Positions 7,056 through 38,640 of a DNA stretch of 64,000 bases are shown in pieces. A program made the translations under genes and the position numbers. The notes under the pieces were generated by a model that was given only the letters and a program-made list of their open reading frames with translations, ran no database searches and was not told the origin of the DNA. This DNA is from Crocinitomix algicola (lineage in GTDB: Bacteria; Bacteroidota; Bacteroidia; Flavobacteriales_D; Crocinitomicaceae). The number at the start of each line of letters is the position of its first letter. Positions within the stretch are counted from its first letter, which is position 1. The DNA lies in NCBI RefSeq assembly GCF_001661595.2, contig NZ_LYPF02000007.1, forward strand, positions 186,001 through 250,000, in the 5' to 3' direction.

Positions 7056-7652
7056 TCACGGCTCTATGAGTTCATGGCGCATCATAATATGAGTGATTAT
7101 TGGGGGGAATAAGAGAGCAATTTTAAATGCAACAGGCGTATTGCTTGGAAAATTTCCGTAAGCATCCCAGCGATCATAATCTTCTGAAAAACTTGTTCTA
7201 ATATCTAAATGTCCATCATCAAAGTTGGCATCCCAGTCATCCCAGTTTTCACTGTAAGAAGTGCGTACTGTTGCATTCCAGTCACTGTTTAAGTCATCGA
7301 TTCTCCAGTTCTCCCAATCTTCATTAAAAGAGGTTCTAATTCTCAGTGAAAACTCATCGTTTTTTAAAGTCCAATGGTCCCAGTCTTCTGAAAAGTTGGT
7401 CTCAATTCTCGCTTCAAATTCGTCTCCGCTTACTTCCCAACTATCCCAATCATTTGTAAATCGTGTTTCAAGCTCATACGACAAATCGTCTATCTCAAAT
7501 TCCCAATCATCCCAGTCTTCTGTAAAAGTGGTACTAAGTTTAATGTCTTCTGTAGTAATATCGGTATTAGGCTGAACGGGTTCAAGTTCACAATTCCACA
7601 ATAATAAGGGTATAAATAGCAAGGTCATCAGGTATGATTTAAAAACTTTCAC
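7056..7652 (-). CDS. Putative lipoprotein built of 22-residue EDWDxW repeats
   Basis: The product has 198 residues from a GTG at 7652. An ATG further upstream at 7685 is also possible, but it lies inside the terminator hairpin of the neighbouring gene, so GTG is preferred. A hydrophobic leader ends LLLWNC, an imperfect lipobox. From about residue 41 to 169 the protein consists of six tandem repeats of about 22 residues. Each starts T-x-F/Y-x-E/N-D/N-W/Y-D/E-x-W, as in TSFNEDWENW and TRFTNDWDSW, followed by an alternating beta-like segment such as FEARIE. The repeats are acidic and Trp-rich. No known family is recognised. It is convergent with the ABC permease gene, abutting its stop. Confidence 0.7.
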   Translation of the reverse strand: MKVFKSYLMTLLFIPLLLWNCELEPVQPNTDITTEDIKLSTTFTEDWDDWEFEIDDLSYELETRFTNDWDSWEVSGDEFEARIETNFSEDWDHWTLKNDEFSLRIRTSFNEDWENWRIDDLNSDWNATVRTSYSENWDDWDANFDDGHLDIRTSFSEDYDRWDAYGNFPSNTPVAFKIALLFPPIITHIMMRHELIEP

Positions 7653-7684
7653 AATCCTAATTGAACAAAAATAATGCCTAAACA

Positions 7685-7717
7685 AAAACTCACCGGTCTT
7701 TTATAACAGTGAGTTTT
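7685..7717 (-). terminator. Rho-independent terminator after the VWA gene
   Basis: A perfect 9-bp stem, AAAACTCAC (7685-7693) / GTGAGTTTT (7709-7717), is followed on the minus strand by TTTTTG. It sits 25 bases beyond the stop of the VWA gene. Confidence 0.75.
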
Positions 7718-16159: not shown

Positions 16160-18874
16160 TTACTCTTCTAAATTACTGCTCAACCACTGTTTCATGCGTT
16201 CTAAAGGAATGTTTTTTGCATTTGCTAGTCGCTCTACCTGATCAAGTTTAATTTTTCCAACACCAAAATATTGGGCCTCAGGGTGGGCAAAATACCATCC
16301 GCTTACCGATGCGGTAGGGTACATGGCCATTGAGTCAGTAAGACTAACCCCCGTTATTTCCGTTGCATTTAATAATTCAAATAAACCAGGTTTTTCGGTG
16401 TGGTCAGGGTTAGCAGGGTATCCTGGGGCAGGCCTAATTCCCCTATATTTTTCTTTAATTAAATCCTCTTTCGATAATTGCTCCTTTTCGTATCCCCAAT
16501 AATCTTTTCGTACAAGCTCATGTAAACGTTCGGCAAACGCTTCTGCAAGTCGATCAGCCAAAGCTTTTAAAAGTATACTATGATAGTCATCATGGTCGGC
16601 TTCGTACTTCGCCAATTGTTCTTCAATTCCTTGACCCGCTGTCACCACAAATCCACCAATATAATCTTTAATTCCACTCTCCTTTGGTGCGATAAAATCG
16701 GCCACACATATATTGCTTGCTTTTGCGGCTTTTTTAATTTGTTGCCTTAAGCCGTATTGAGTATAAGCAACTTCAGTGCGTTCTTCGTTTTCGTATATTT
16801 CAATATCATCGTCATTTACTGAATTTGCAGGCCATATTCCAACAACAGCATTGGCAATAATCCATTTTTCGTTTATGATTTTGTCCAACATTTGATTGGC
16901 ATCTTCAAACAGTTTCGTAGCTTCCGCACCCATGTCTGGATGTTCCAAAATTTGGGGGTATTTTGCCCTTAGTTCCCATGTATGAAAAAACGGCGTCCAA
17001 TCAATATAGCCTCTTAATTCGCTTAAATCATAATCTTTTAAAGCAGTTGTTCCTATTTTTTTAGGTTGCGCAATGTCTTCAATTTTCCAATTTATTTTCA
17101 ATTTATTCTCTCTGGCTTCATTGAGCGATAGGAACTTTTTGAACCCTTTTTTCTTGGCATAATTCGTTCTAACCTTATCATATTCAGCTTGAATGCTTTC
17201 AACAAATTGAGGTTTTTTATCACTTAATAACTCACTTACTACGGTCACCGATCGAGAAGCATCTAAAACATGAACAGTTTGTCCCTTGGTATAATGTTGA
17301 TCAATTTTTACAGCCGTGTGTACTTTAGAAGTTGTTGCTCCACCAATTAATAAAGGTAAATTCATGCCGGCATTTTCCATTTCTTTAGCCACATGCACCA
17401 TTTCGTCCAATGACGGCGTAATTAACCCACTTAATCCAATAATATCGACTTGGTGTTCTTGAGCGGCTTCCAAAATTTTGTTGCCCGGTACCATTACCCC
17501 CAAATCAATAATATCATAATTATTACATCCTAAAACAACGCCCACAATATTTTTACCAATATCATGTACGTCTCCTTTTACTGTGGCTAGCAACACTTTT
17601 CCTTTCGAGCGACTTTCAGTTTTTGAAGCTTCAATATAGGGGAGTAAATAGGCAACCGCTTTCTTCATCACACGAGCAGATTTAACCACTTGGGGCAAAA
17701 ACATTTTTCCTGCTCCAAACAAATCACCCACGATATTCATTCCAATCATTAAATGTCCTTCAATTACCTCGATTGGTTCAGCGACTTCATTTCGAGCTGT
17801 TTCAACATCTTCTTCAATATAATCAGCAATACCTTTTACCAAGGCATGAGAAATACGATCCTGTAGCGGCGCTTCTCTCCATGATAAATCTATCGTTTTG
17901 GCTTTGCTTTCACCGGTTACCGTTTCAGCAAAAGCCAATAGACGCTCAGTAGCATCAGATCTTCTATTGAGTAAAACATCCTCGACATGGAGTAGTAAGT
18001 CTTTAGGAATGTCATCATATACCTCAAGCATCGAAGGGTTCACAATTCCCATATCCAATCCTTCCTTTATGGCGTGAAAAAGAAAAGCGGAATGCATCGC
18101 TTCACGTACTACATTATTTCCTCTAAATGAAAAAGAAACATTACTTATTCCTCCACTTACATGGGCTCCCGGTAAGTTTTCTCTAATCCATCTTGTCGCT
18201 TGAAAAAAATCTAGCGCATTTAGTTTATGTTCATCCATGCCCGTTGCAACTGGGAAAACGTTTGGATCAAAAATAATGTCTTGAGGAGGGAAATTAACTT
18301 CATCAACAAGTATACGATATGAGCGTTCACAAATGTCAACTCTCCTTTGGTAGGTGTCGGCCTGTCCATCCTCGTCAAAGGCCATAACCACAACTGCAGC
18401 TCCGTATTGGCGAATTTTTTTCGCTTCCGTAACAAATTTTTCTTTGCCTTCCTTTAAACTGATTGAGTTAACGACACATTTTCCTTGAACGCATTGCAGA
18501 CCTGCCTCTACAATTTCCCACTTTGATGAGTCTATCATAATCGGTACGCGAGAAATATCAGGTTCAGATGCGATTAAATTCAAGAATTTAACCATAGCCT
18601 CTTTCCCATCAATTAAACCATCGTCCATATTGATGTCGATGATTTGTGCACCGCCCTCCACTTGGTTTCTTGCGATTGACAATGCTTCGTCATATTCCTC
18701 TTCCTTGATCAATCGTAAAAATTTTCGCGAACCTGCTACATTAGTGCGTTCACCAATATTGATGAAATTAACTTCAGGACTAACTTCTAAAGGTTCTAAT
18801 CCACTTAATTTCATGTTCGGAAGATGATTCCACTTATACTCGTATTTTCCTTTGTAATCAGGATGTAAACTCAT
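16160..18874 (-). CDS. metH: Methionine synthase, folate/B12/activation part of split MetH
   Basis: The protein has 904 residues and lacks the homocysteine-binding module, which is a separate gene upstream. A pterin-binding domain (about 30-290; [22 protein letters not shown]) is followed by the cap and B12-binding domains (about 330-570), whose base-off motif [17 protein letters not shown] supplies the cobalamin-ligating His. The SAM-binding reactivation domain (about 590-900) carries [15 protein letters not shown]. It moves the methyl group from methyltetrahydrofolate via cob(I)alamin to homocysteine in the cytoplasm. It is the last gene of the SAM-riboswitch operon, 48 bases after the QueF-like gene. 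No metF follows. Confidence 0.95.
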
Positions 18875-19361: not shown

Positions 19362-20357
19362 TTAATTTTTCGTATTTAATTGGTTATATTTTTCTGCTAG
19401 TAAGGCCATCTCTTTGATATGGTCAGGTGTTGTACCGCAACAGCCTCCAATGATATTCACCAGTTTCTCTTCTAAGAAAGTGTCAATTTGACCAGCCATC
19501 ATTTCGGGACTCTCATCATATTCCCCCATTTCATTAGGAAGGCCAGCATTTGGATGAGCACTTATATAAAAAGGTGCTTTTTGCTTTAAAACCTGTAAAT
19601 AAGGTCTTAACGCATCTGCACCCAAAGCACAATTTAAGCCAATGCTTAACAAATCCGCATGCTGCATAGAGATAAGAAATGCCTCTGTGGTTTGACCTGA
19701 TAATGTCCTGCCACTGGCATCCGTAATTGTTCCACTTACCATGATGGGTAACTCGGTCTTTAGTTCGGTTTGTACTTCTTCAATAGCAAAAAGAGCGGCC
19801 TTCGCATTTAAAGTATCAAATATGGTTTCGACCAGTAATAAGTCTGCTCCTCCTTCAATTAATCCCCTCACTTGTTCAGAATAGGCTATGACCATTTTAT
19901 CAAATGTGGTATTTCTAAAACCAGGGTCATTCACGTCTGGTGAAATCGATAAGGTCATATTCGTTGGTCCTATGGAGCCGGCTACGAATCGTGGTTTTGC
20001 AGGGTTTTTTGCTGTGAACTCTTCACATACTTCTTTCGCTATTTTCGCGCCATAATAATTGATATCATAAGCGGCTTTTTCTAAATTGTAGTCAGCTTGT
20101 GCTATCGTCGTTCCGCTAAAAGTATTCGTCTCTATTATGTCAGCGCCAGCCTCTAGGTATTCCGCATGAATGGCCTTAATAACATCCGGACGTGTTAAGA
20201 CCAACAGGTCGTTATTGCCTTTTAATGAGTCGGGATGATTTTCAAACCAGCCTTTTCTGAAGTCTTCTTCCTCCAGTTTATAGCGCTGAATCATAGTTCC
20301 CATTGCTCCATCGAGAACCAGGATACGCGATTTTAATATTTCTCTAATGTCATTCAT
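19362..20357 (-). CDS. metH: Homocysteine S-methyltransferase module of split MetH
   Basis: The protein has 331 residues and corresponds to the N-terminal module of Met[27 protein letters not shown] at the start, then [23 protein letters not shown] and the zinc ligands in LNCALGAD (about residue 243) and [11 protein letters not shown] (about 306). It binds and activates homocysteine through Zn2+ for methylation by the B12-bound partner, the larger MetH protein two genes downstream. The split form is common in Bacteroidota. It is the first gene of the operon, downstream of a SAM-I riboswitch. Confidence 0.93.
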
Positions 20358-20413
20358 AGTTGAACGATTGTAGAGTGGACCGGGAAGTTTTGAAATGATT
20401 TTTAAAAGTTTCG

Positions 20414-20522
20414 CTTATATCGTTAATGCAAATTTGCTTAACAGGAATTGGCACCTTGTCCTCTTGAATGAGTTCGGTTGCCAAGGTTTCAAAGGGCCGG
20501 TCCCTCCACCTTTCTTTATAAG
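20414..20522 (-). promoter_or_regulatory. SAM-I (S-box) riboswitch upstream of metH operon
   Basis: Read on the minus strand, the element shows the S-box core: AAAGGTGGAGGGAC, GAAACC, TTGGCAACC and GGTGCCAATTCC. P1 is CTTATA (20522-20517) paired with TATAAG (20419-20414). P3 has CCTTG/CAAGG, and P4 is GTTAA-GCAAA/TTTGC-TTAAC. No clear intrinsic terminator is visible in the 56 bases before the ATG at 20357, so control may act on translation or through a weak terminator. Confidence 0.9.
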
Positions 20523-20545
20523 TGTAATTAAATTAAGAACTGGGA

Positions 20546-34855: not shown

Positions 34856-34863
34856 TAACTTTG
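34856..34863 (+). promoter_or_regulatory. -7 box of the metX operon
   Basis: TAACTTTG is a perfect TAnnTTTG box 33 bases before the SAM-I aptamer and identical to the box before the metH riboswitch. No good TTG at the -33 distance is visible. Confidence 0.5.
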
Positions 34864-34896
34864 CATTGTCGGTTGCAGTTCTTGTGATTGTAATTG

Positions 34897-35010
34897 ATTT
34901 ATAAAGAAGAGGTGAGAGACAGGCTCTATGACCCTCTGGCAACCATTTACGGTAAGTGAAAAGGTGCCAATTCCTGCTTCTAAAGGATGTTCCTTTAGAG
35001 ATATATAAAT
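34897..35010 (+). promoter_or_regulatory. SAM-I (S-box) riboswitch upstream of metX
   Basis: The S-box core is clear: AGAGGTGAGAGAC, ATGACC, TGGCAACC and GGTGCCAATTCCTG. P1 is ATTTATA (34897-34903) with TATAAAT (35004-35010). P4 is the perfect hairpin CTAAAGGA/TCCTTTAG (34980-34998). The aptamer is followed by a short Cys/Met-rich ORF rather than a plain terminator. Confidence 0.9.
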
Positions 35011-35021
35011 GAATTGCAGAA

Positions 35022-35114
35022 ATGACAACATCAAAATTTAAACAACAGTTAAGTAAGTCAAAATTATCAAATCATCAACATTGTTGTTGTATGACTTGCT
35101 GTTGTATGCATTAA
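35022..35114 (+). CDS. Cys/Met-rich leader peptide, 30 aa
   Basis: An ATG 12 bases after the SAM-I aptamer opens a 30-codon frame that ends HQHCCCMTCCCMH followed by TAA. The first 17 residues are polar and Lys/Gln/Ser-rich. The peptide has six Cys and two Met residues in the last ten positions (plus the initiator), far above chance, just before the sulfur-amino-acid operon metX-hom-metZ. It is not in the frame of metX (ATG 35194) and ends 79 bases before it. Small hairpins follow the stop (TTTCC 35121-35125 / GGAAA 35131-35135 and CCAC 35149-35152 / GTGG 35158-35161), but there is no strong terminator. It may act as an attenuator sensing charged Cys or Met tRNA, or as a thiol peptide; both are inference. 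Confidence 0.6.
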   Translation: MTTSKFKQQLSKSKLSNHQHCCCMTCCCMH

Positions 35115-35193
35115 TCCATCTTTCCTTTCTGGAAATCGTTTAACCTAGCCACTTTCCGTGGTGTGGGAATTAGCTTGTTTTATTTAAATTATT

Positions 35194-36225
35194 ATGAATC
35201 AGTATTTTACAGTTGAAAAAAATGTTGAGCTCGAATCAGGGCAGAAGATTGAAAATGTTCGAATAGCTTATCGCGATACCGGTCCTGAATCGGGAGCTAA
35301 AGTGGTTTGGGTCTGTCATGCTTTAACTGGTGATGCAAATGTTTTTGAATGGTGGTCTGGTTTGTTTGGGTGTGGACAATTGTTTGATCCTAAAGAATAT
35401 CGTGTAATATCAGCAAATATTTTAGGTTCTTGTTATGGTTCAACAGGTCCTCAAGATTATGATTGTCCCAATGAATTTCCTTCTATAACTATAAGGGATA
35501 TTGTTCGTTTTCATAAAATATTGGCAGATGAATTAGGTGTTGAACGCATCTCGATACTAATTGGTGGGTCAATTGGTGGGCAGCAAGCACTGGAATGGGC
35601 TTGCATTGAAAGCGATAGGATTGAGCAACTTATATTAATTGCAACGAATGCTGTCCATTCTTCTTTTGGTCGTGGCTTCAATGAAGTGCAAAGACTGGCC
35701 TTAAAGGCGGATTCAACTTTTGGCTTAGTCAATGGAGGAAAAGCAGGGTTAAAAGCAGCTCGGTCAATGGCGATGATCTCTTATCGTTCTTATCAAGATT
35801 TTCAACTCAGACAAAAGGATGTTGATTCGGAATTAGAGTCTTTTAAAGCAGTGACTTATCTTAATTATCTCGGGGAAAAATTTGTAGAACGTTTTCATCC
35901 AAATGCTTACTTCATACTCACCAAAGCCATGGATAGTCATAATGTGGCTCGAGATAGAGGGGGTATAGAAGAAGTTTTAGGTCGAATCACTTGTAAGACG
36001 TTAGTAATTGGTGTTGATACGGATTTGCTTTTTCCAATTGAGGAGCAACAACTAATAGCAAACTGTATTCCCAATGCAGAGTTTGGGGTGATAAAGTCTA
36101 TTCATGGTCACGATGCTTTTCTCATAGAGTATGAACAACTGAATTTTTTAATACACGAATATTTATTTAATGGCTTTAAAAAGTTTAAGCCAACAACTTT
36201 AAAAAAAAGAACAAATGTCAAATAA
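35194..36225 (+). CDS. metX: Homoserine O-acetyltransferase
   Basis: The protein has 343 residues and the alpha/beta-hydrolase fold of MetX: NVRIAYRDTG, WVCHALTGDANVFEWW, SCYGSTGP, the nucleophile in GGSIGGQQALEW, Asp in GVDTDLLFP and His in SIHGHDAFL. It activates homoserine with acetyl-CoA (or succinyl-CoA in some members) for sulfur incorporation. It is the first full gene after the SAM-I riboswitch and the leader peptide. Its 3' end overlaps hom by 11 bases. Confidence 0.93.
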   Translation: MNQYFTVEKNVELESGQKIENVRIAYRDTGPESGAKVVWVCHALTGDANVFEWWSGLFGCGQLFDPKEYRVISANILGSCYGSTGPQDYDCPNEFPSITIRDIVRFHKILADELGVERISILIGGSIGGQQALEWACIESDRIEQLILIATNAVHSSFGRGFNEVQRLALKADSTFGLVNGGKAGLKAARSMAMISYRSYQDFQLRQKDVDSELESFKAVTYLNYLGEKFVERFHPNAYFILTKAMDSHNVARDRGGIEEVLGRITCKTLVIGVDTDLLFPIEEQQLIANCIPNAEFGVIKSIHGHDAFLIEYEQLNFLIHEYLFNGFKKFKPTTLKKRTNVK

Positions 36226-37420
36226 TTTAAAAATAGGTCTTTTTGGTTTTGGCTGTGTCGGAACCGGGTTATATAAGGTCTTAAATCAAAGTAGTTTATT
36301 AAGTGCTTCAATTGAAAAAATTGTCGTGAAAAATAAAAATAAACAACGTGAATTGTCGGCGGACAATTTTTCTTACGATCCTAATGTGATTTTAGATGAT
36401 CCTGAGATAAATTTAGTTGTTGAGTTGATTGATGATGCGGATGCTGCTTTCGAAATCGTTAAGACGGCTTTTCGTCGAGGGAAGAATGTGGTTTCTGCGA
36501 ATAAAAAATTAATTGCAGAGCATTTGGAGGAGTTATTGAAGCTTAGCGCAGAATTTAATGTGTCATTTTTATATGAAGCGGCCGTTTGTGGAAGTATTCC
36601 TGTGATAAGAAACCTGGAAGAATATTACAATAATGATAGTTTAACGGCTATAGAGGGAATTTGTAATGGTACGAGCAATTATATTCTGACTCGCATATCA
36701 AAGGAGTTAAAATCGTTTGATGAAATTCTTACTGATGCTCAAAATGCCGGCTTTGCCGAATCTGATCCAACATTGGATATTGATGGTTTCGATAGTAAAT
36801 ATAAACTCCAAATTTTACTGTTGCATACCTTTGGTATTCTTTCTCAGCCGAAAGAAGTGCTGAATATTGGGGTGCGTCATGTGAAGCAAGCAGATGTTTC
36901 GTTTGCTAAGGAGCGAGGGTTGAGGTTGCGATTGCTTTCTTATGGACGCCGGGTAGAAGACGAGGTAGTCGCTTTTGTAGCTCCTGTTTTTGTAGATGAA
37001 CTTAGTTTTTCATTTGATGTGAATTATGAGTTTAATGGTGTGTCTTTTGAAGCTTTGTTTTCGGATAAGCAGGTTTTTACGGGGAAGGGTGCTGGTAGTT
37101 TCCCTACAGCTTCGGCTGTTTTATCAGATGTTTCTGCTTTGCAATATGATTATCAATATGAATACAAGAAAAAGAACAGCACGCATTTAGGGCTTGCTAA
37201 AGATTTTAAAGTGAAAGTTTTTGTGTCTGCGAATGATCAATCGAGGTTGGCATTGTTTTCTTTTTTGTCTATAGAAGAAGAGTATCAGTCTGCTGGCTAC
37301 GCGTACAAAGTAGGATGGATAAATAGAAGTGATATTTCGCATGAGTTATATCGGGATAATCCAGATTTGTTCATTGCTTTTTACGGAAATAACCCTGTTG
37401 AATTAATTGGTACGAAATGA
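36215..37420 (+). CDS. hom: Homoserine dehydrogenase
   Basis: The protein has 401 residues. The Rossmann motif is GLFGFGCVGTGLY (near the start). The substrate region has EAAVCGSIPVIRNLEEYY, GICNGTSNYILT and FAESDPTLDIDGFDSKYKL. A C-terminal extension after about residue 325 may be ACT-like. It reduces aspartate semialdehyde to homoserine with NAD(P)H, giving the substrate of MetX. It is overlapped by metX at the start and overlaps metZ by 4 bases (ATGA), so the three are tightly coupled. Confidence 0.93.
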   Translation: MSNNLKIGLFGFGCVGTGLYKVLNQSSLLSASIEKIVVKNKNKQRELSADNFSYDPNVILDDPEINLVVELIDDADAAFEIVKTAFRRGKNVVSANKKLIAEHLEELLKLSAEFNVSFLYEAAVCGSIPVIRNLEEYYNNDSLTAIEGICNGTSNYILTRISKELKSFDEILTDAQNAGFAESDPTLDIDGFDSKYKLQILLLHTFGILSQPKEVLNIGVRHVKQADVSFAKERGLRLRLLSYGRRVEDEVVAFVAPVFVDELSFSFDVNYEFNGVSFEALFSDKQVFTGKGAGSFPTASAVLSDVSALQYDYQYEYKKKNSTHLGLAKDFKVKVFVSANDQSRLALFSFLSIEEEYQSAGYAYKVGWINRSDISHELYRDNPDLFIAFYGNNPVELIGTK

Positions 37421-38577
37421 GAAGAATAGAGACAAGATTGATTCGAAATCAATTAAACAGATCAGAGAATAGGGAGCATGCAGTGCCTTTGTATCTTACA
37501 TCAAGTTATACTTTTGAAAATGCGGATCAAATGGCGGATTTATTTAGTGGTCAGCAAGAAGGGTATGTTTATAGTCGGTATGCAAATCCAAATGTTACAG
37601 AATTTGGAGATAAAGTTGCTGATTTAGAAGGTGTAGAAGCTTCGTGGGTGACAGCTTCGGGAATGGCAGCCGTGTTTTCGACTTTTGGAGCATTGCTTTG
37701 TCAAGGTGATGAGGTGTTGGCTTGTCGTTCTGTTTTTGGTTCAACACACCAGTTGTTTGAACGTATTTTGCCCAAATGGGGAATTATTACGAATTATGTT
37801 GAATTTGACAAGGTTGACAAATGGGAAGAGTCAATTACGGATAAAACAAAGTTAATTTACTTGGAAACACCGACTAATCCGGGCGTGGATATTATTGATT
37901 TAGAGTCTGTGGGATTGTTAGCAAAGAAGCATGGACTTTTATTGATTGTGGATAACTGCTTTGCAACCCCGATTAATCAAAGGCCAGCCAAGTTTGGTGC
38001 TGATCTGGTGATTCATTCTGCAACCAAATACTTTGACGGTCAAGGTCGTGTAATGGGAGGGGTTGTTGTTGGTTCTAAAGTTTTGATGGATGAAATTCAG
38101 TCGTTTGCAAGGCATACTGGTCCTGCAATTTCTCCCTTTAACGCATGGGTGCTATCCAAGAGCTTGGAAACGTTACCAATTAGAATGGAGAAGCATAATC
38201 AAAATGCGTTATTACTTGCGAAAAAGTTGGAGCAACATCCCAAAGTGCAGAAGGTTAAATATCCGTTTTTACCCTCTCATCCCCAATTTGAAATTGCCCA
38301 AAAACAGATGAACGGCGGTGGCGGTATTCTAACCTTTGAAGTGCGCGGGGGGCTGTCTAAAGGAAAGCTGTTTCTTAATAGACTTAAGATGATTTCTTTA
38401 ACAGCAAATCTTGGTGATTCTCGGTCAATCGCGACGCATCCCGCAAGCACAACGCATTCGAAATTAACAGAAGAACAAAGGCAGGTCGTTGGAATTAGTT
38501 CGGGTTTAATTAGAATTTCAGTTGGTCTGGAACATATTGATGATATCTGGGAAGATATTGTGCAGGCTTTAGCCTAA
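37417..38577 (+). CDS. metZ: O-acyl-homoserine sulfhydrylase, PLP enzyme
   Basis: The protein has 386 residues and belongs to the Cys/Met-metabolism PLP family: GYVYSRYANPN, VTASGMAAVFSTF, LETPTNPG, VDNCFATP and the PLP-binding Lys in VIHSATKYFDGQGR. ATHPASTTHSKLT is also conserved. The YFDGQGR stretch is typical of MetZ/O-succinylhomoserine sulfhydrylase. It makes homocysteine directly from acyl-homoserine and sulfide, feeding the split MetH encoded at 16-20 kb. It is the last gene before a terminator. Confidence 0.92.
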   Translation: MRRIETRLIRNQLNRSENREHAVPLYLTSSYTFENADQMADLFSGQQEGYVYSRYANPNVTEFGDKVADLEGVEASWVTASGMAAVFSTFGALLCQGDEVLACRSVFGSTHQLFERILPKWGIITNYVEFDKVDKWEESITDKTKLIYLETPTNPGVDIIDLESVGLLAKKHGLLLIVDNCFATPINQRPAKFGADLVIHSATKYFDGQGRVMGGVVVGSKVLMDEIQSFARHTGPAISPFNAWVLSKSLETLPIRMEKHNQNALLLAKKLEQHPKVQKVKYPFLPSHPQFEIAQKQMNGGGGILTFEVRGGLSKGKLFLNRLKMISLTANLGDSRSIATHPASTTHSKLTEEQRQVVGISSGLIRISVGLEHIDDIWEDIVQALA

Positions 38578-38584
38578 AAGGGGT

Positions 38585-38640
38585 GCAGTTTTAACTGCGT
38601 TGTTTAAGAAGTGACTCATCGATGGTGGGTCATTTTTTTT
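38585..38640 (+). terminator. Double hairpin with T-run after metZ
   Basis: A perfect stem GCAGTT (38585-38590) / AACTGC (38593-38598) is followed by TGACTCA (38612-38618) / TGGGTCA (38626-38632, one G-T pair) and then eight T residues (38633-38640). The second hairpin is a standard intrinsic terminator; the first is an additional stem. It separates the methionine operon from the dcw cluster. Confidence 0.8.

Follow-up and report, generated by a model that had tools for sequence, protein, structure and literature searches.

A Cys- and Met-codon leader ORF between a SAM-I riboswitch and metX in Crocinitomix algicola, and its possible role as a SAM-gated attenuator

Between the SAM-I riboswitch aptamer and the metX operon of Crocinitomix algicola there is a short ORF which ends in a run of Cys and Met codons. 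ORFs with such an end are conserved in many Bacteroidota: they begin about 10 nt after the aptamer, they are restricted in our survey to loci of the metX or metB type, the RNA beyond their Cys codons is structured, and no intrinsic terminator follows them above chance level in the 54 loci searched. We infer that this ORF would be translated, that its translation would be gated by SAM, that ribosomes would stall on its Cys and Met codons and that this stalling would be read out on the RNA beyond. We thus consider it likely that the ORF is the leader of a ribosome-sensed attenuator placed under the control of the SAM-I aptamer, which would turn the operon on only if both SAM and Cys/Met were low.

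The leader ORF and its counterparts in Bacteroidota

The features of the locus are collected in Table 1. The sequence-only reading had described an ORF of 30 codons ending in CCCMTCCCMH, with 6 Cys and 2 Met in its last 10 codons, and this is what we found; the gap between the aptamer and the ATG, however, is 10 nt (35012-35021) and not the 12 nt first given. The leader ORF is real and beyond chance. The window (the whole stretch of 64,000 nucleotides that was analysed) contains 335 ORFs of 20-80 aa, and no other than this one reaches 3 Cys in the last 12 codons, where it has 6; among the 11,779 ORFs from Markov-simulated windows, 0 had 6 Cys there.

The leader stop is separated by 79 nt from the ATG of metX (35194), which forms an overlapping operon with hom and the metB/metZ-type gene. 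The motif TAnnTTTG, the Bacteroidota -7 consensus, is our basis for calling the element upstream of the aptamer promoter-like; the aptamer, the leader ORF and the operon would then share one transcript. A second SAM-I aptamer of the window (20412-20524, - strand) precedes metH, and no leader ORF was found after it. This metH is split into a 331-aa homocysteine-binding part (19362-20357, - strand) and a 904-aa part (16160-18874). Elsewhere in the window (7056-7685, - strand), a predicted protein carries short repeats of the F(S/N/T)EDWDxW type.

Table 1. Features of the metX locus of C. algicola, in positions of the window
Feature	Position	Strand	Evidence or remark
Predicted Bacteroidota-type -7 promoter element TAACTTTG (TAnnTTTG)	34856-34863	+	sequence; upstream of the aptamer
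SAM-I (S-box) riboswitch aptamer	34896-35011	+	Rfam RF00162, full-length match (model positions 1-108), 76.2 bits against a gathering score of 44.4, E 4.2e-16
P1 3' strand, proposed as candidate SAM-gated part of the leader translation initiation region	35004-35011	+	covariance-model alignment; 10 nt 5' of the leader ATG
Leader ORF, ATG start, 30 aa, MTTSKFKQQLSKSKLSNHQHCCCMTCCCMH	35022-35114	+	sequence, comparison with relatives
Predicted hairpin I, around the first Cys codons	35072-35094	+	RNAfold
Regulatory codons CCCMTCCCMH (6 Cys, 2 Met)	35082-35111	+	sequence; tail composition in relatives
Predicted hairpin A (TTTCC/GGAAA), immediately 3' of the leader stop	35121-35135	+	RNAfold; counterparts in relatives
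Predicted hairpin B (GCCAC/GTGGT), 5' of metX, U-tract not immediately adjoining	35148-35162	+	RNAfold
metX, homoserine O-acetyltransferase	35194-36225	+	NCBIfam TIGR01392, E 2.7e-91, below the curated cut-off
hom, homoserine dehydrogenase, overlapping metX	36215-37420	+	NCBIfam NF004976, 308.6 bits, cut-off 205
metB/metZ-type enzyme, overlapping hom; nearest to O-succinyl/O-acetylhomoserine sulfhydrylase	37417-38577	+	NCBIfam NF006003, 505 bits, below the cut-off of 522
Intrinsic-terminator-like hairpin and T-run, 3' of the operon	38611-38640	+	sequence, read by eye

We surveyed 260 distinct SAM-I loci in Bacteroidota genomes, drawn from 59 relatives, a class-wide sample, 80 named GTDB genomes found via metX and 61 genomes of one family. 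We counted as a leader any short ORF 3' of the aptamer that has, close to its stop, a stretch of 8 codons holding 3 or more Cys. Loci were sorted by their first long gene, by BLAST to the window's own proteins, the class metB taking in metY-type sulfhydrylases; the control loci preceded metH, metE, hom, metF, nifS-like, cysH-like, OsmC-like and peroxiredoxin genes, which except for metH and hom were named by eye from sequence. The Cys-cluster ORF is present in 63 of the 108 loci before metX or metB/metY-type genes and in none of the 152 before other genes (metH 0/103, others 0/49). The Fisher probability is 2.9e-31, not corrected for relatedness, and overstates independence since the surveyed loci are related. 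The cluster is missing in about 42% of the metX/metB-type loci.

The tails of these leaders read, for instance, CICMCCCCC in Mucilaginibacter, TCMCCCIQ in Pedobacter, HCCCCCCGC in Saprospiraceae, QMCCCCC in Flavobacteriales and CCCCMC in Pontibacter; in some of the nearest relatives, of the same genus, they are weakened (MCCTIWQ, MICRFCR). The reading frame and the Cys codons are kept over a wide range of Bacteroidota while the flanks diverge, which is the outcome that the check set in advance had called for. This strongly supports the suggestion of the sequence-only reading that ribosomes provide a second layer of control besides the S-box; its picture of two layers side by side has to be amended, as they are probably in series (see below).

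The survey also brought up loci of other kinds. Two of them are L319 (1611-1724) and L336: in Pontibacter, a poly-Cys leader ending in SHFCCCCCCC follows SAM-I and precedes a RimK-like ATP-grasp gene, itself followed in L319 by an apparent flavin-dependent monooxygenase, and in Hymenobacter an ORF containing CCCCCC lies before the same type of ATP-grasp gene. Poly-Cys leaders may control other sulfur genes too. Seven loci (L127, L112, L145, L197, L229, L279 and L328) have leaders with few Cys whose end regions contain Arg-Met repeats (RMRM, MRMR and the like); these are perhaps Met-sensing, or perhaps an RNA element. Finally, several relatives (L004, L028, L032) have SAM-I ahead of genes for small OsmC-like proteins.

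The leader start and the RNA beyond the Cys codons

In SAM-I riboswitches of the direct-translation type, the ribosome binding site lies within the 3' side of P1 (Barrick and Breaker, PMC2258182). The ATG of the window, 10 nt from the aptamer end, is placed as in this type, and so are those of most relatives: over 53 leader loci, the leader ATG is found at a median of 10 nt (IQR 9-13) 3' of the P1 strand. The start of metH in relatives, by comparison, follows P1 at a median of 60 nt and never at less than 36 nt. There are also four loci (L066, L069, L136, L183) where metX has no leader and its own start follows the SAM-I P1 at about 6-10 nt; they offer a natural comparison for direct SAM control. 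Most simply, SAM binding would control initiation at whichever ORF sits about 10 nt after P1, which in loci of the leader type is the Cys/Met leader. As the leader starts where SAM binding should gate translation, the SAM layer and the ribosome layer are probably in series.

In leader-peptide systems generally, expression is off when the leader is untranslated, off again when it is translated without pause, and on when a ribosome is stalled on it. With the leader start placed under P1, this attenuation logic gives a serial gate. When SAM is bound, P1 would form 10 nt 5' of the leader ATG and keep ribosomes from entering; the leader would stay untranslated and the operon off. When SAM is low, ribosomes would translate the leader. 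If charged Cys-tRNA, and probably Met-tRNA, were then available, the ribosomes would run through to the stop and dissociate, and expression would be kept off or low by the structured, pyrimidine-rich RNA that follows the stop codon. If charged Cys- or Met-tRNA were scarce, the ribosome would stall in the CCCMTCCCM run and would alter the hairpins or the exposed sites after the stop, so that metX-hom-metB would be expressed. According to the gene assignments, the products of the operon are O-acetylhomoserine and homocysteine. The genome also has CBS-type and cystathionine lyase-type genes, and homocysteine could therefore feed cysteine; the homocysteine made by the operon is a source of methionine and probably of cysteine as well. 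The logic of an AND gate fits this physiology.

The RNA from the Cys codons onward is more stable than its shuffled versions (mean z of -2.0 over 54 loci, versus -0.15 for the 5' part of the ORF), and this holds for the RNA after the leader stop alone (p 6e-10). Two hairpins recur, A right after the leader stop and B farther downstream. Hairpin B in Pedobacter has 5 of its 6 pairs changed on both sides, with a covariation score that none of 500 shuffles attained, and the hairpin over the Cys codons in the same genus, the counterpart of I, shows modest covariation. In Mucilaginibacter-like loci, a post-stop ACACGU can pair either with the Cys codons or with a downstream ACGUGU (93% and 92% of cells), which resembles a classical attenuator, through pairs that hardly vary. 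A general test over the loci for the overlap of alternative pairing strands gave p 0.068, the overlap being clearly seen only in the Mucilaginibacter-like sequences; this does not reach significance for mutually exclusive hairpins as a general rule.

A classical transcription attenuator with an intrinsic terminator was rejected. Of the 54 loci, 9 have a predicted U-tract terminator between leader and gene where 2.8 were expected, but nearly all of them lie inside the Cys codons, and with these set aside the 54 loci have no intrinsic terminator after the leader above chance; in the window there is none between the leader and metX, whereas a hairpin of that type seems to stand at the operon's end (Table 1). 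This means that the read-out is not the classical one. The first 30 nt beyond the leader stop have about twice as much C as G and are 57-67% pyrimidines. Rho is present. Rho-dependent termination, judged here by base composition only, is therefore the most likely read-out in most species.

A different read-out would be translational: the metX start would be hidden by the Cys run or its hairpin until a stalled ribosome released it. Modelling does suggest this for a few species. The Cys run is predicted to pair with the start region of metX in L078 and L142, where the leader stop is 39-42 nt from metX, and likewise with the downstream start in L020, L052 and L126; moreover, mycobacterial poly-Cys attenuators are cited as translational (PMC13236596). 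In most loci, however, including the window (0.0 expected pairs), the downstream start is not paired with the Cys run, and in the stalling that we modelled the accessibility of the start region was hardly altered. Masking of the metX start was rejected as a general rule on account of the many loci without such pairing, and we regard translational attenuation as an unlikely account of the whole.

One could also suppose that the aptamer acts through its own platform, independently of the leader, which would be a separate attenuator on the same transcript. The two elements are indeed separable, the SAM-I aptamers of metH having no leader (0/103) and leaderless metX genes existing, but the leader ATG lies nearly always about 10 nt from P1, which is the position of directly controlled genes, and the lack of an intrinsic terminator after the leader in the 54 loci speaks against independent action too. 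Hence we hold such independence to be quite improbable, and we retain the serial gate in which SAM would decide on the translation of the leader.

Codon composition and reading frame

As is characteristic of leader-peptide attenuators, codons for an amino acid of the pathway form a conserved run close to the stop of these short ORFs. Cys makes up 35% of the last 12 leader codons versus 1.6% of the rest, and Met, which was not a selection criterion, 12% versus 1.4%. When the Cys codons of the last 12 codons are counted by frame (228/75/9), they keep to the frame of the leader ATG despite varying leader lengths, and both TGT and TGC are in use. In close pairs of leaders, single-base codon changes are synonymous most often when they are read in the frame of the leader (44/135 versus 24/120 and 17/102); the excess is clear in individual pairs such as L060/L061 (4:1) and L073/L075 (9:3) and is not clear in other pairs.

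It could be the peptide itself that is active, as a thiol, metal or redox sensor or as an arrest peptide, and the sequence-only reading had allowed for a thiol or metal sensor. Adjoining cysteines could bind metal. This reading has nevertheless lost ground and now appears very improbable, as the peptide is not conserved outside its Cys/Met tail: the leaders range from about 27 to 53 aa, their N-termini are unrelated between groups, and no conserved nascent-chain residues, as an arrest peptide would have, were found besides the tail across the leaders of relatives. The leader peptide has no match in Pfam or NCBIfam either, Met is enriched together with Cys, and the downstream genes are those of the homocysteine pathway. 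Least probable of all is the reading that a UGU-rich RNA structure gives rise to the Cys run as a side effect, without its being read as protein. The Cys codons do lie within hairpin I in many species, but the preserved frame, the variation between TGT and TGC, the enrichment in Met and the synonymous share all go against it.

Known systems and meaning

The proposed SAM-gated leader attenuator shares with the classical trp, his and ilv attenuators the run of pathway-product codons near the end of a short ORF and the hairpins downstream; unlike them, it has no U-tract terminator, and its initiation is apparently controlled by a riboswitch. Salmonella mgtA has a leader peptide plus a metal-sensing leader RNA, responding to Mg2+ and proline. 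It likewise combines a ligand-sensing leader RNA with a short ORF read by the ribosome, but its signals, its genes and its RNA are different; PMC11260477 cites work related to it.

Poly-Cys short ORFs of mycobacteria were reportedly described by Canestrari in 2020 (cited in PMC13236596) as cysteine-responsive attenuators. Like these and the poly-Cys leaders of Actinobacteria (Seliverstov 2005, PMC1262725), the Crocinitomix leader has a run of Cys codons adjoining the stop, before sulfur-assimilation genes, and like the mycobacterial ORFs it has no obvious intrinsic terminator. The mycobacterial ORFs, however, are leaderless, have no described riboswitch and precede cys or cbs genes, whereas the Crocinitomix leader has added Met codons, belongs to metX/metY genes and to another phylum, has no sequence relation with them and is not leaderless, its ATG coming after a whole aptamer and about 160 nt after the promoter-like -7 element. 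In the relay of M. tuberculosis ppe2 (Kipkorir 2024, PMC11260477), the aptamer of a B12 riboswitch governs the translation of a uORF, through which the signal reaches the operon; we propose the same arrangement here. The ppe2 relay, however, uses B12 and overlapping uORF stop/start codons, and no amino-acid-sensing codon run is reported for it, whereas in Crocinitomix the ligand is SAM and the leader stop does not overlap the metX ATG, from which it is 79 nt away. The SAM-I riboswitch of the Xanthomonas campestris met operon also senses uncharged initiator tRNA (PMC7270179). It thus has in common with our case a met operon, a second, tRNA-related input and a mainly translational control, but there the tRNA, the initiator only, binds the RNA directly and there is no leader peptide.

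The sequence-only reading knew of no leader of this kind combined with an S-box, and in the literature searched (subscription papers, preprints and supplements aside) we also found no account of SAM-I with a Cys leader or of poly-Cys leaders in Bacteroidota. The transcriptome papers on F. psychrophilum and B. thetaiotaomicron mention leader-peptide attenuation in general terms only. Relays from a riboswitch to a uORF are known, and so are poly-Cys attenuators; their combination is undescribed in the literature searched. We lean slightly towards the view that it constitutes an undescribed, phylum-wide two-input gate, in which the riboswitch would decide whether a sensor of tRNA charging made of Cys/Met codons is read, with a Rho-dependent or hairpin-only read-out.

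Studies usually treat riboswitches and leader-peptide attenuators as alternatives; here they are apparently fused in series in many Bacteroidota, where to our knowledge control by leader peptides is hardly documented. If this is true, it would be a natural two-input gate for SAM and amino-acid charging, which can be tested in the tractable Pedobacter or Mucilaginibacter. It would explain why, within one genome, SAM-I ahead of metX/metB-type genes differs in construction from SAM-I ahead of metH, and dozens of small ORFs which match no protein family would gain a function.
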